In this document: one piece after another, positions 1-4,641 of the stretch | Layout: each line of letters opens with the position of its first letter | How positions within the stretch are numbered: the stretch's first letter is position 1 | Source of the DNA: Minisyncoccota bacterium | GTDB lineage: Bacteria > Patescibacteriota > Minisyncoccia > Phycocordibacterales > UBA5272 | NCBI GenBank assembly: GCA_018063165.1 | Contig: JAGOQU010000007.1 | Span: forward strand, 1 to 38,763 | Length of the DNA stretch: 38,763 nucleotides | Direction: 5' to 3' | The notes under the pieces: model-generated | Seen by the model: the letters and a program-made list of their open reading frames with translations, nothing else | The model's database searches: none | What the model was told of the DNA's origin: nothing | Made by a program: the position numbers and the translations under genes

Positions 1-1
1 T

Positions 2-1243
2 AATGATTTGTTGCCAATACAAAAAAATATTGTAGAGAGACTTGGTGGAACATATATCGGAGAGCATAATCCATTTATTAGAAAAATTGTCAGAAGAACA
101 AGAAAGTATCTTGAGACAACTATTAATCCTGCAACGAAGGAACCGTATCTTGCTCCAATAAAAGTTATTCTTCATGGTGAAAAAGATTCTGAAGCTATTA
201 TTCTACCAACGTATCTTCAGGAGGCATACAGTAAGGCAGAGGAGTTCTCTAAGGAATTATCTAAAGTAAAGAAGAATAGTAAGTTTGTTACTACTCTATT
301 GCTTAAGCGTGTTGGTAGTTCGATGTATGCAGGTAGTAAGACTGCACAAAAGTTGCTCGATGGTAATAAGGAAAACGAAAAGGAGTATGAAAAGAAAATC
401 GGAGAATTGTCACAAGAAGATGATCTCTTTGAAGAAGAAAGTATGGAACAGGACAGTGTCGAGATTAGTCATGAGGCTACATCAGCACTGAAAGCCTTTA
501 TTGATATTTTGAAGGAAAGAATTGATGAGGACCCTAAGTTTGGTTTGTTGGTTGAGATATTAAAGGACAAGGAATGGGTTAAACGAGGGTGTATTATTTT
601 TTCACAGTACTATGATACTGCATATTGGTTCGCAGAGAAGTTGGTAAAAGAGAATATATTGCCGAATGAAAAAATTGCTCTATACGCTGGAGGTGATAAG
701 TCAGGAGTATTCCTCGATGGTGTGTTTGTTAAACGCCCAAAAGATGAGTTGAAGAAAATGGTTAAGAATGGCGAGATTAAAATTCTGTTCGGTACTGATG
801 CGGCAAGTGAAGGTTTGAATATGCAAACACTAGGATCACTAATTAATATTGACTTACCATGGAACCCGACAAGATTAGAGCAGCGAAAGGGAAGAATTCA
901 GAGAATTGGTCAAAAGTATGACGAGGTATGGATACACAATATGAGATATAAAGATTCTATTGAAGACAGAGTTCATAAAATCTTGTCTGAGAGACTGGAA
1001 TCAATCACTAGTATTTTTGGACAGCTTCCTGATATTTTGGAAGATGTTTGGGTGGAGATTGCTAAGAATGATATCGAGAAGGCAAAAAAGATAATTGCAC
1101 TAATTCCAAGAAGGAGTCCGTTTGAAGCAAAGTATGAAAATCCTAAAATGATTACTACACTCAAATGGGAATCATGTTCAAAAGTTCTCGATGAGTATAC
1201 TAAAGTGGACCACTTTAAAAAGAGTTGGGGAGATAAGAAATAG
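2..1243 (+). CDS. SNF2/RapA-type helicase, C-terminal part (5' end outside window)
   Basis: The reading frame is open to the left edge, so the N-terminal ATPase lobe lies outside the window. The visible part holds the second helicase lobe: a segment starting IIFSQYYDTA, then GTDAASEGLNMQ (motif V, nt 791-826) and RLEQRKGRIQRIGQ (motif VI, arginine fingers, nt 872-913), which is the SNF2/RapA signature. Before it sits a charged helical stretch with NPFIRKIVRRTRKYLE, typical as I recall of large prokaryotic SNF2 helicases that often carry a phospholipase-D-like domain and sit in phage-defence loci. The role would be ATP-driven translocation or remodelling on nucleic acid. It is followed 27 bases later by a DUF262/HNH/AlbA_2 protein on the same strand, which supports a defence role by context only. 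Family call is firm; system identity is not. Confidence 0.85.
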   Translation, partial: NDLLPIQKNIVERLGGTYIGEHNPFIRKIVRRTRKYLETTINPATKEPYLAPIKVILHGEKDSEAIILPTYLQEAYSKAEEFSKELSKVKKNSKFVTTLLLKRVGSSMYAGSKTAQKLLDGNKENEKEYEKKIGELSQEDDLFEEESMEQDSVEISHEATSALKAFIDILKERIDEDPKFGLLVEILKDKEWVKRGCIIFSQYYDTAYWFAEKLVKENILPNEKIALYAGGDKSGVFLDGVFVKRPKDELKKMVKNGEIKILFGTDAASEGLNMQTLGSLINIDLPWNPTRLEQRKGRIQRIGQKYDEVWIHNMRYKDSIEDRVHKILSERLESITSIFGQLPDILEDVWVEIAKNDIEKAKKIIALIPRRSPFEAKYENPKMITTLKWESCSKVLDEYTKVDHFKKSWGDKK

Positions 1244-1270
1244 TAAAGTTTGTTAATAATAAAAATAAAT

Positions 1271-3394
1271 ATGAAAATAAATCAAATCCTTGATAAAATT
1301 GACGACAACCAGTTGTTCATTCCGTCTTTCCAGCGAGAATATGTTTGGAAAAGAGCTGATGCTAAAAATCTCATTTCTTCACTCATCAAGAAGTATCCAA
1401 CTGGAACAATGTTAACATGGGAAACAAATAGCCCGCCTGAGCTTAAAGGTGATTGGAAGTACGATTCGATGCAAGGAGCTGTTAAGATTATTCTCGATGG
1501 GCAGCAACGTATAACAACCTTATATATGCTAATTAAAGGAAAGATACCTCCTTACTATACTGAGAGTGAGGTACTGAATGACCCTCGAGGTTTGTACGTT
1601 AATATAAAAACATTAGAATTGGAATATTTCATTAAAAATAAAATGGAGAATAATCCATACTGGATAAATGTAACAGATATCTTTCAAAAGAATGTTAGAG
1701 AGCGTGACGTTGTAAGAAAACTAGAAGAAGGCGGTGCTACAGTCACAAGAGAAGAAGAGGATGTTATCTCTGATAATTTTCAGTCCATAAGCAGTATTCC
1801 TGACTTTGAATTCGTAGAGCAAATAATTCCAGTTAAAGCGAATCTAAAAGAAGCTATAGATATTTTTTATATTGTTAATGCAAGTGGTATCAATTTAACT
1901 GACGCAGAACTAGCACTAGCACAAATTTCTGGTTACTGGCCTCAAGCAAGAGAAGAATTTAAAAAGAAGCTCGCAGAGTTAGAAGAAAATGGTTTTGTTT
2001 TTAATCTTGATTTTATTATCTATTGCTTACTAGGAATATTACATAGCAAGGGTTCTGAAATGACGAAGCTACATAGTGAAAATAATAATGATAATCTTAG
2101 ATCTGCATGGAAAAAGTTGAATGAAAACGTGCTTGATTATGTTGTGAATATATTGAGAACTCATGCATATGTGGACCATACTAAAGAGATTAATTCGAGG
2201 TATGCAGTAGTGCCTATCGTTGTATATGTTTTCAACAAGGAAAGGTCTGTTCTATCTGAGGAGGAGATTAAAAAGGTTGTGAAGTGGTTTTACTATTCTC
2301 AAATAAGACAACGATACATAAGTCAGCTTCCTCAAAAACTTGATAAAGATATTAGTGTTGTTGTTAAGTCTGCTAAACCATTTGACGAACTGCTAAATAT
2401 AATAGCATCAGAAAGATCTCTTGAAATTTCACCAGATGAATTTATTGGTGTCGATGTTAGAAATGCATTGTTTAGTTTAATGAGATGGTATTTCAAAAGT
2501 AGAGAAGCGGTATGCTTCACTACAGGTATGGGTATAAGGCAAAATATGGGAAAGAAATATTCTTTAGAGTGGGACCATATTTTCCCGTACTCATTACTTA
2601 AAGAAGACGGTTACGATATGAATAATAGACATAAGTATTCATTGGCTCAAGAAATAACAAATAGAGCAATACTGACTCAGCTTGGAAATCGAAGAAAGGG
2701 GAATGAAAAGGCAGATGAATATCTAAAAAATGTAAGAAACGAATTTCCAAAAGCATTAAAGTTACAATCTATTCCAGAAGATGATAATTTATGGAAACAG
2801 GAAAATTTTGAAAGCTTTATTGCTAAAAGAAGAGAAATGCTTGCTGGCGAATTAAATTCTTTTTTGAATAATATTACAGCAACAGAGGAAGCTGTTAGCG
2901 AGGTTCCTCTTGATGAGATTATTAAAGAAGGAGAAAGTAATGAATTGGAGTTTAAGTCTTCATTACGTTGGAGCTATAACACGGGTAATGTAGATAAGAA
3001 ATTGGAAGCTGTAATCTCAAAGACTGTGGCAGCCTTTGGTAATAGTGAAGGAGGTATTTTAGTGATTGGAGTAAATGATGATGGTGAAGCACTTGGTCTT
3101 GATCGAGATTACGGGTCACTTAATGGAAATAAAGACGAGTTTGAAATTCATTTAAGAAATGTTTTGAATGAGGCCTTTGGTAAGTCTTTTATAGCATCAA
3201 ATGTTAAAATGACATTCCATGAGATTAATGAATTTGAAGTCTGTAAAATAGAGATACAGAAAAGTAAAAAACCACTGTATCTTAGCCTTACTGATGACAG
3301 GGGTCAGAAACAAGAAAAATTCTATGTAAGAAGTGGTAATACTTCTCAAGAGTTACTTACCAGTGAAATCAGCGACTATATTTCAAATCGGTAA
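1271..3394 (+). CDS. DUF262-DUF1524 (GmrSD-like) protein fused to an AlbA_2/Schlafen-type domain
   Basis: 707 aa from the ATG at 1271; a frame-compatible TTG at 1250 exists but has no support. Residues ~1-250 are a DUF262 domain (ParB-like nucleotide-binding fold): DGQQR at ~76-80, and FYIVNASGINLT for the usual F-x-x-x-N-x-x-G. Residues ~430-490 are DUF1524, an HNH-type nuclease, with WDHIFP (His ~436) and a downstream TNRAILTQLGNRRKGN. Residues ~550-705 are an AlbA_2 (divergent AAA-4, Schlafen-like) domain with ELEFKSSLRW and AFGNSEGGILVIGVNDDG. GmrSD-type proteins are type IV restriction enzymes that cut modified phage DNA, with NTP hydrolysis in the DUF262 part; AlbA_2 domains are linked to nucleic-acid binding or RNA cleavage. 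Adjacent helicase suggests one operon. Domain calls are strong, the biological role is inferred. Confidence 0.88.
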   Translation: MKINQILDKIDDNQLFIPSFQREYVWKRADAKNLISSLIKKYPTGTMLTWETNSPPELKGDWKYDSMQGAVKIILDGQQRITTLYMLIKGKIPPYYTESEVLNDPRGLYVNIKTLELEYFIKNKMENNPYWINVTDIFQKNVRERDVVRKLEEGGATVTREEEDVISDNFQSISSIPDFEFVEQIIPVKANLKEAIDIFYIVNASGINLTDAELALAQISGYWPQAREEFKKKLAELEENGFVFNLDFIIYCLLGILHSKGSEMTKLHSENNNDNLRSAWKKLNENVLDYVVNILRTHAYVDHTKEINSRYAVVPIVVYVFNKERSVLSEEEIKKVVKWFYYSQIRQRYISQLPQKLDKDISVVVKSAKPFDELLNIIASERSLEISPDEFIGVDVRNALFSLMRWYFKSREAVCFTTGMGIRQNMGKKYSLEWDHIFPYSLLKEDGYDMNNRHKYSLAQEITNRAILTQLGNRRKGNEKADEYLKNVRNEFPKALKLQSIPEDDNLWKQENFESFIAKRREMLAGELNSFLNNITATEEAVSEVPLDEIIKEGESNELEFKSSLRWSYNTGNVDKKLEAVISKTVAAFGNSEGGILVIGVNDDGEALGLDRDYGSLNGNKDEFEIHLRNVLNEAFGKSFIASNVKMTFHEINEFEVCKIEIQKSKKPLYLSLTDDRGQKQEKFYVRSGNTSQELLTSEISDYISNR

Positions 3395-4021: not shown

Positions 4022-4330
4022 ATGATGAAAATAATTATTCCAGAAAATTTAAAAGATTCATACTGGGACCGTGTGCTTTATCTTTCTAGGAAGAACAAGG
4101 ATTCATTAATTATTTTTACTGAAGAAGAGAAAAGTTTTCTAGATAAAAAATTAAAAGAATTAGATAAAAATCCTGATAGCTCAGCTTTTAATCGTTTTAT
4201 ATTAGCTGGAATAATCAGAACAAAATCTGTTAGTAATGTATTGGAGCTACCAAAGGAGTTTGAAGAGTTTTCAAAAGTAGAAGTTTCCTTTTCTTTTGAA
4301 AGGAACAGTGTTCTTGTTAGTAAGAACTAA
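4022..4330 (+). CDS. Hypothetical protein, 102 aa
   Basis: Starts with two consecutive ATG codons; the first fits the -10 element six bases upstream. The product is charged and predicted soluble: an N-terminal strand (MKIIIPENL), a helical middle rich in Lys/Glu, and a C-terminal segment of alternating hydrophobic residues (KVEVSFSFERNSVLVSK). I do not recognise the family. Its stop codon overlaps the stop of the convergent gene on the minus strand by two bases, leaving no room for a terminator between them. Confidence 0.6.
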   Translation: MMKIIIPENLKDSYWDRVLYLSRKNKDSLIIFTEEEKSFLDKKLKELDKNPDSSAFNRFILAGIIRTKSVSNVLELPKEFEEFSKVEVSFSFERNSVLVSKN

Positions 4331-4641
4331 AACCAGACTTTTGATCTATGGTCTTCTGACACAGTACCAACATTACACATTGGACAAGTTTCATCATCTT
4401 TTAGAAAGGTGTGAGCGCTAGCACAGTTCGGGCAGATGTAAGTAGCACTCTCTACTGTTACAACTTCTTTACACGCTTTACAGAACTCCATAGAAACTCT
4501 TTCTAAAACATATTCAGGTCTAGCTGGTAACATTTTTTCATCTTCAGGAGTGCCATCTTTCCATACTGGAGTAATCTTACTAAGGTTTAATTCAAAACAA
4601 CACTCTTTATTGCTACATTTATAGTTGTTTATACAAGACAT
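4327..4641 (-). CDS. Zinc-ribbon protein, 104 aa, unknown function
   Basis: Contains several metal-binding pairs: a CSNKEC pair near the N-terminus, then CKAC, CPNC and CPMC, consistent with two zinc ribbons. Between the first pair and the rest is a proline-containing linker (RPEYVLERVSMEF). Such small ribbons often bind nucleic acid or protein, but no partner is evident. It is convergent with the 102-aa gene and their stop codons overlap. The AT-rich upstream region (4642-4760) is shared with the divergent gene starting at 4770. Confidence 0.65.
   Translation of the reverse strand: MSCINNYKCSNKECCFELNLSKITPVWKDGTPEDEKMLPARPEYVLERVSMEFCKACKEVVTVESATYICPNCASAHTFLKDDETCPMCNVGTVSEDHRSKVWF

Follow-up and report, generated by a model that had tools for sequence, protein, structure and literature searches.

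A five-gene operon, carried on mobile or integrated DNA, would have its 3' end at the left edge of the window, as we call the whole stretch of 38,763 nucleotides analysed here. This operon probably combines a Type-2 BREX-related (BR) restriction core with a co-expressed accessory effector, predicted to act both as a nuclease on modified DNA and as a Schlafen-type RNase. The genes follow one another on one strand in the order DUF499 ATPase, DUF3780, DUF1156 methyltransferase, HKD-SNF2 helicase and, as the fifth, a gene for a DUF262-HNH-AlbA_2 fusion protein (Table 1). Such a fusion is apparently undescribed, as none was found in the literature searched. The first-pass annotation had regarded the helicase and the large protein as a candidate defence locus, to be decided by the genes upstream. 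Both statements are borne out: contig C3 supplies DUF499, DUF3780, the methyltransferase and the helicase's PLD-bearing half, and the cassette scores as Type-2 BR with a GmrSD-family companion.

Table 1. Features of the five-gene locus; unprefixed ranges are positions in the window
Feature	Position	Strand	Evidence
Assembly overlap with contig C3 end	window 1..127 = G000:C3:38244-38370	.	exact match
DUF499 AAA+ ATPase	L054:10213-13305 (contig C3)	same strand as cassette	PADLOC, NCBIfam
DUF3780, stand-alone	L054:13289-13855 (contig C3)	same strand as cassette	PF12635
DUF1156 N6-adenine methyltransferase	L054:13858-16746 (contig C3)	same strand as cassette	NF042963
HKD(PLD)+SNF2 helicase, N-terminal part	L054:16752-18371 (contig C3)	same strand as cassette	PLDc_2
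HKD(PLD)+SNF2 helicase, C-terminal 413 aa	2..1243	+	Helicase_C 4.6e-15; PADLOC PLD_Helicase 1.4e-86
Putative DUF262-HNH-AlbA_2 fusion, 707 aa, GmrSD/BrxU-like with Schlafen-type domain	1271..3394	+	Pfam, PADLOC, PDB profiles
DUF262 (GmrSD_N) domain; FQR 20-22, DGQQR 76-80, F199...N203	1277..1927	+	Pfam residues 3-218, 3.4e-29; alignment
HNH/His-Me region; D435-H436, N464, N473	2573..2692	+	shared motif residues; HEC-05 coverage
Schlafen AlbA_2 domain; E555, E560, D603	2933..3352	+	Pfam SLFN_AlbA_2 residues 555-694, 7.5e-19

Contig C2, one of 15 in a genome of 843 kb, begins with the first base of the window, whose first reading frame is open at the 5' end. The missing N-terminal half of this protein was located at the end of contig C3 by searching the same genome with the PLD_Helicase family, and joining C3 to C2 gives an intact helicase of 911 amino acids with HKD(PLD) and SNF2 parts. 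The protein first taken for an SNF2-type helicase is indeed a helicase, but not a simple SNF2 one, as its PLD/HKD half lies on C3. The joined helicase scores 1200.5 bits with NF042964 ('phospholipase D-like anti-phage protein'; cut-off 1100), and the methyltransferase, in which TDPPY and motif I are present, 1341 bits with NF042963 (cut-off 1000). DUF499 matches the PADLOC DUF499 profile at 9.3e-188 and NF042962 at 6.3e-227 (756 bits, equivalog cut-off 1200), while DUF3780 reaches 149 bits with PF12635 (cut-off 27) and 151 bits with NF042961 (cut-off 200). Since these two proteins stay below the NCBIfam equivalog cut-offs, they appear to be diverged members of their families. DUF499 has Walker motifs (GGGKTH, LLDE) and an Fn3_assoc match at residues 842-885. 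The PLDc_2 match of the helicase lies at residues 50-176; in an alignment with six relatives, HGK and GSMNES of the HKD region are conserved, but the aspartate of the strict HxKx4D motif is not. The Walker, DPPY, helicase and PLD-region motifs are otherwise intact across the cassette.

Type-2 BR systems are defined by DUF499, a DUF1156-type N6-methyltransferase, a helicase in which an N-terminal HKD nuclease replaces TUDOR, and a stand-alone DUF3780 (PMC12839542; NAR 2026, gkag035); their DUF499 protein is described with an FnIII-like domain and a C-terminal RRM (PMC12839542). Because all the defining features of gene content are present, the four-gene core can be assigned to this named kind and is, on that assignment, not new. 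The combination that the first-pass annotation left unplaced is a Type-2 BR system (PMC12839542) with a companion of the GmrSD family. Other candidates were discarded. DISARM, with DrmA, DrmB and a separate DrmC, does not agree in gene content, the cassette genes scoring as BR-2 components, and the DrmD match of 183.7 bits is far under the cut-off of 610. Hma (Type-1 BR) has a helicase with an N-terminal TUDOR and a C-terminal REase and lacks DUF3780, unlike the present locus with its HKD N-terminus and DUF3780, and the HmaA-C matches are weaker than those to BR-2. A leftward search for PLD, methyltransferase or DUF4391 genes had been advised; the first two were found and DUF4391 was not, and a PLD-DUF4391 arrangement is excluded on gene content.

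The fifth gene starts at ATG 1271 (the mechanical list of open reading frames places the start at TTG 1250) and is separated from the helicase by 27 bases on the same strand (1244-1270), exactly the gap given by the first-pass annotation. Promoter and terminator signals around it do not exceed what chance would give. The AlbA_2 domain ascribed to its product is confirmed, and so is DUF262; the DUF1524 nuclease claimed beside them is not recovered by Pfam (GmrSD_C) at E<=0.01, yet the HNH/His-Me residues are there, and this part is best described as a putative DUF1524-like region too diverged for detection by Pfam. The PADLOC HEC-05 (BrxU-type) profile covers residues 2-534 at 1.9e-49, and a profile of the fusion matches BrxU (PDB 7p9k, 1.4e-31) and SLFN13 (5yd0, 1.8e-8). 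In an alignment of ten fusions, H436, N464 and N473 are invariant (10/10) and D435 is D or H; the DUF262 motifs FQR, DGQQR and FxxxN are common to all ten, with small departures in two.

The residues E555, E560 and D603 of the AlbA_2 part are invariant in 10 divergent fusions and align, by hmmsearch to 5yd0, with SLFN13 residues taken to be E205, E210 and D248 on the basis of the E-x4-E spacing plus D, with a presumed offset of 13 between the numbering of the PDB chain and of the paper. Mutation of these SLFN13 residues lowers or abolishes its RNase activity (PMC5862951). Because other bacterial AlbA_2 proteins also carry the E-E-D residues, they may mark the domain rather than an active RNase. 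SLFN13 requires a two-lobe pseudo-dimer, and in the fusion AlbA_2 is a single stretch of about 140 amino acids in which the two-lobe core was not found; a homodimer of the fusion could stand in for it. An AlphaFold model, built with 6 sequences, is poor (pLDDT 54). A different reading, with a considerable chance of being correct though below an even one, holds that AlbA_2 is a nucleic-acid-binding or sensing module devoid of RNase activity, by which the GmrSD nuclease is guided or is brought to the helicase of the adjacent restriction system. AlbA-type domains bind nucleic acid, and in type I, type III and BR-2 systems alike the fusions recur next to a translocase subunit. The invariance of the equivalents of the SLFN13 catalytic triad speaks against this, as do reports that Schlafen-family RNases serve BREX/BR loci as auxiliary effectors (PMC12839542). 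We keep to the Schlafen-type RNase as the predicted role of the domain.

BR-2 cassettes are rare in Patescibacteria: two of 380 sampled genomes were above the DUF3780 cut-off. The second of these Patescibacteria, G373, has the same cassette order with 66-80% amino acid identity, and DNA homology to it runs from DUF499 across the contig junction to the end of the helicase, where it stops. As the homology does not extend further, the fusion gene appears to be a module separate from the core cassette. The gene order also occurs in plasmid loci of Thermodesulfobacteriota, Proteobacteria, Deinococcota and Thermomicrobiota, with insertions in some. GmrSD genes without AlbA_2 accompany other BR-2 cassettes. 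That of G373 precedes DUF499 by 90 bp, that of Methylocystis follows the helicase after 28 bp, and that of Lichenicola lies 1.3 kb from the cassette. Since GmrSD flanks other cassettes and the homology to G373 ends at the helicase, core and GmrSD companion seem to have been exchanged separately, and GmrSD to have joined the core more than once. GmrSD_N was found at 68 places in 372 Patescibacteria genomes; as an immediate neighbour it would be expected by chance at ~4e-4 per cassette, a figure that clustering in defence islands would raise.

Several of these cassettes show further features. In G373 (L110 / L111, G373:C2), GmrSD and PDDEXK_1 lie upstream, and a NERD-helicase and a TPR protein with glycine/aspartate repeats downstream. 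The Methylocystis plasmid GmrSD (L118:16368-18205) is annotated as two overlapping ORFs, possibly owing to a frameshift or as a real two-protein form. A separate AlbA_2 + HATPase (Schlafen-type) gene is placed between methyltransferase and helicase in the BR-2 operon of a Desulfosarcina plasmid (L112:13558-15015), and a Pycsar system directly upstream of the cassette in a Stutzerimonas plasmid (L113:3091-5642). Two Deinococcus plasmid loci have a VapBC pair between DUF3780 and methyltransferase (L115:10630-11366, L117:10609-11378), and the cassette of L117 is interrupted by IS elements.

The close relatives of the fusion, 60-62% identical along their whole length, come from Allopontixanthobacter, Sphingopyxis, Bizionia and Sinorhizobium; more distant ones (28-36%) occur in Dojkabacteria and haloarchaea. 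In four independent settings, this BR-2 locus included, the fusion gene or a relative abuts a restriction-helicase gene on the same strand. In sphingomonads it is 94 bp from type I HsdR, at two nearly identical loci; in Bizionia it is flanked by HsdR and HsdM (2 bp and an 8-bp overlap); in Dojkabacteria it overlaps type III Res by 28 bp (L049 and L051 adjoin HsdR, L053 adjoins Res). A Hypoth_Ymh/HEPN-like gene lies directly 3' of the Dojkabacteria fusion gene (L053:12252-12947), in a type III RM operon. The relatives in Sinorhizobium and Haloquadratum are near RM genes without abutting them, that of DL31 has a divergent BR operon at a distance of 2.3 kb, that of G1217 is beside an MmeI-type enzyme, and that of G039 has no defence gene nearby. 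No full-length fusion was found in the phage collection; viral contigs contain distant GmrSD relatives, none of which matches along the AlbA_2 part.

The first-pass annotation advised counting how often the two genes are neighbours in other genomes. That they always occur together finds no support: in our neighbourhood survey most fusions were beside other RM systems or alone and most Type-2 BR loci were without a fusion. With most BR-2 loci lacking it and several relatives standing alone, coupling between core and fusion is not obligatory. It might be argued that the fusion gene encodes an autonomous type IV restriction enzyme, which has nothing in common with BR-2 but the defence island and, perhaps, the promoter, and is not functionally coupled to it. 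Homologs that stand alone or beside unrelated RM systems agree with this, as does the end of the G373 homology exactly at the helicase, and BrxU and HEC-05 proteins have been described as acting independently (PMC11411939). We nevertheless hold autonomy to be less likely than not, given that the short same-strand gap here and the 2-bp spacing or overlaps in Bizionia and Dojkabacteria suggest co-expression, and that GmrSD genes recur at BR-2 loci. An accessory effector expressed together with the core is the reading that we follow.

That the C3-C2 join is an assembly chimera, with the cassette in reality not followed by the fusion gene, is highly improbable and nearly refuted: the join rests on an assembler k-mer overlap with no read-spanning contig, and both contigs terminate there, but the 127-bp overlap occurs at only two places in the genome (the C3 end and the window start), the joined helicase is full-length, above its family cut-off and aligned end to end without a break with the G373 homolog (80% amino acid identity), and the C-terminal half of the helicase shares one contig with the fusion gene, so that these two are neighbours whether or not the join is correct.

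On contig C3, 6 kb before the operon, a serine recombinase gene extends over the 3' end of a tRNA-Asp gene, an integration hot spot (L054:2594-4281), and is followed by a degraded repeat of the recombinase's N-terminal part with 78% identity (~L054:4301-4411). A second attachment site for this element was not found in the genome. Downstream of the locus, the window encodes a small zinc-ribbon protein on the minus strand (4327-4641), with weak TFIIB-type and DZR matches.

The sequences show what the cassette is, the order of its genes, that the catalytic motifs are preserved and that the neighbourhoods recur; we infer phage defence by this copy, specificity for modified DNA, RNase activity and coupling to the core. 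The methyltransferase would mark self DNA, DUF499 and DUF3780 would detect DNA that is unmarked or foreign, and the helicase would translocate on it and cut it by its HKD domain. In the fusion, expressed together with this core, DUF262 would bind NTP and sense modified DNA as in BrxU/GmrSD, and HNH would cut such DNA, which is expected to escape the core. AlbA_2 would act as a Schlafen-type RNase on tRNA-like targets and halt translation if the attack on DNA fails or DUF262 is triggered. A type IV role is suggested by the analogy with BrxU beside BREX (PMC8565348) and TgvAB in a type I RM operon (PMC11411939). Most likely, the fusion would cover phages that evade the core through their modified DNA, and the RNase may be a back-up. 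A more far-reaching proposal, which we offer tentatively and think doubtful as a whole, is that the fusion is a new single-chain dual effector, an NTP-driven sensor and cutter of modified DNA plus a Schlafen RNase. It might move about as a plug-in companion to the translocase genes of unrelated restriction systems (type I, type III, Type-2 BR), acting once the main system has been evaded or blocked. With the fusions repeatedly found next to restriction translocases, the idea that such companions protect against phages able to inhibit or evade the main system can be put to the test.

The locus is now placed in a named system, and a rare BR-2 cassette is documented in Patescibacteria, bacteria with small genomes. 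Compared with Type-2 BR systems (PMC12839542; NCBIfam NF042961-NF042964), it agrees in its four core genes and their order, including the HKD-SNF2 helicase, stand-alone DUF3780 and DUF1156 methyltransferase, and probably also in an Fn3-associated segment of DUF499; it differs in the fused GmrSD-AlbA_2 gene directly downstream and in its Patescibacteria host. Hma with embedded HEC-05/HEC-06 likewise has a GmrSD-like protein beside a DUF499/methyltransferase/helicase core (PMC11411939, PMC12839542). The fusion has DUF262 and a putative HNH part in common with the BrxU/GmrSD type IV enzymes, all motif residues included, and its gene, like that of BrxU, a complementary type IV restriction enzyme next to BREX (PMC8565348), sits beside a BREX-type core, but it has an additional C-terminal Schlafen AlbA_2 domain, and its HNH part is too diverged for Pfam DUF1524. 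TgvAB of Vibrio cholerae and RloF of Campylobacter are GmrSD-like genes within type I RM loci, comparable to the Bizionia and sphingomonad relatives (PMC11411939, PMC4619093); unlike the fusion, they have no reported AlbA_2 part, and TgvAB is a two-protein system. With Schlafen RNases (SLFN13 and the BREX/BR auxiliaries) the fusion shares the AlbA_2 fold by profile and the aligned E-E-D residues, but the domain is a single lobe joined to a type IV restriction enzyme and not to a kinase-like and wHTH part. The BR-2 core was known already, and so were GmrSD genes that accompany BREX/BR and RM loci; GmrSD and Schlafen RNases have been reported as auxiliary effectors of BREX/BR loci (PMC12839542). 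What appears to be new is the fusion of the two in one protein. If the fusion acts as its motifs imply, it would unite type IV restriction and Schlafen-type RNA cleavage in a single chain and offer a direct bacterial parallel to the vertebrate SLFN antiviral RNases.
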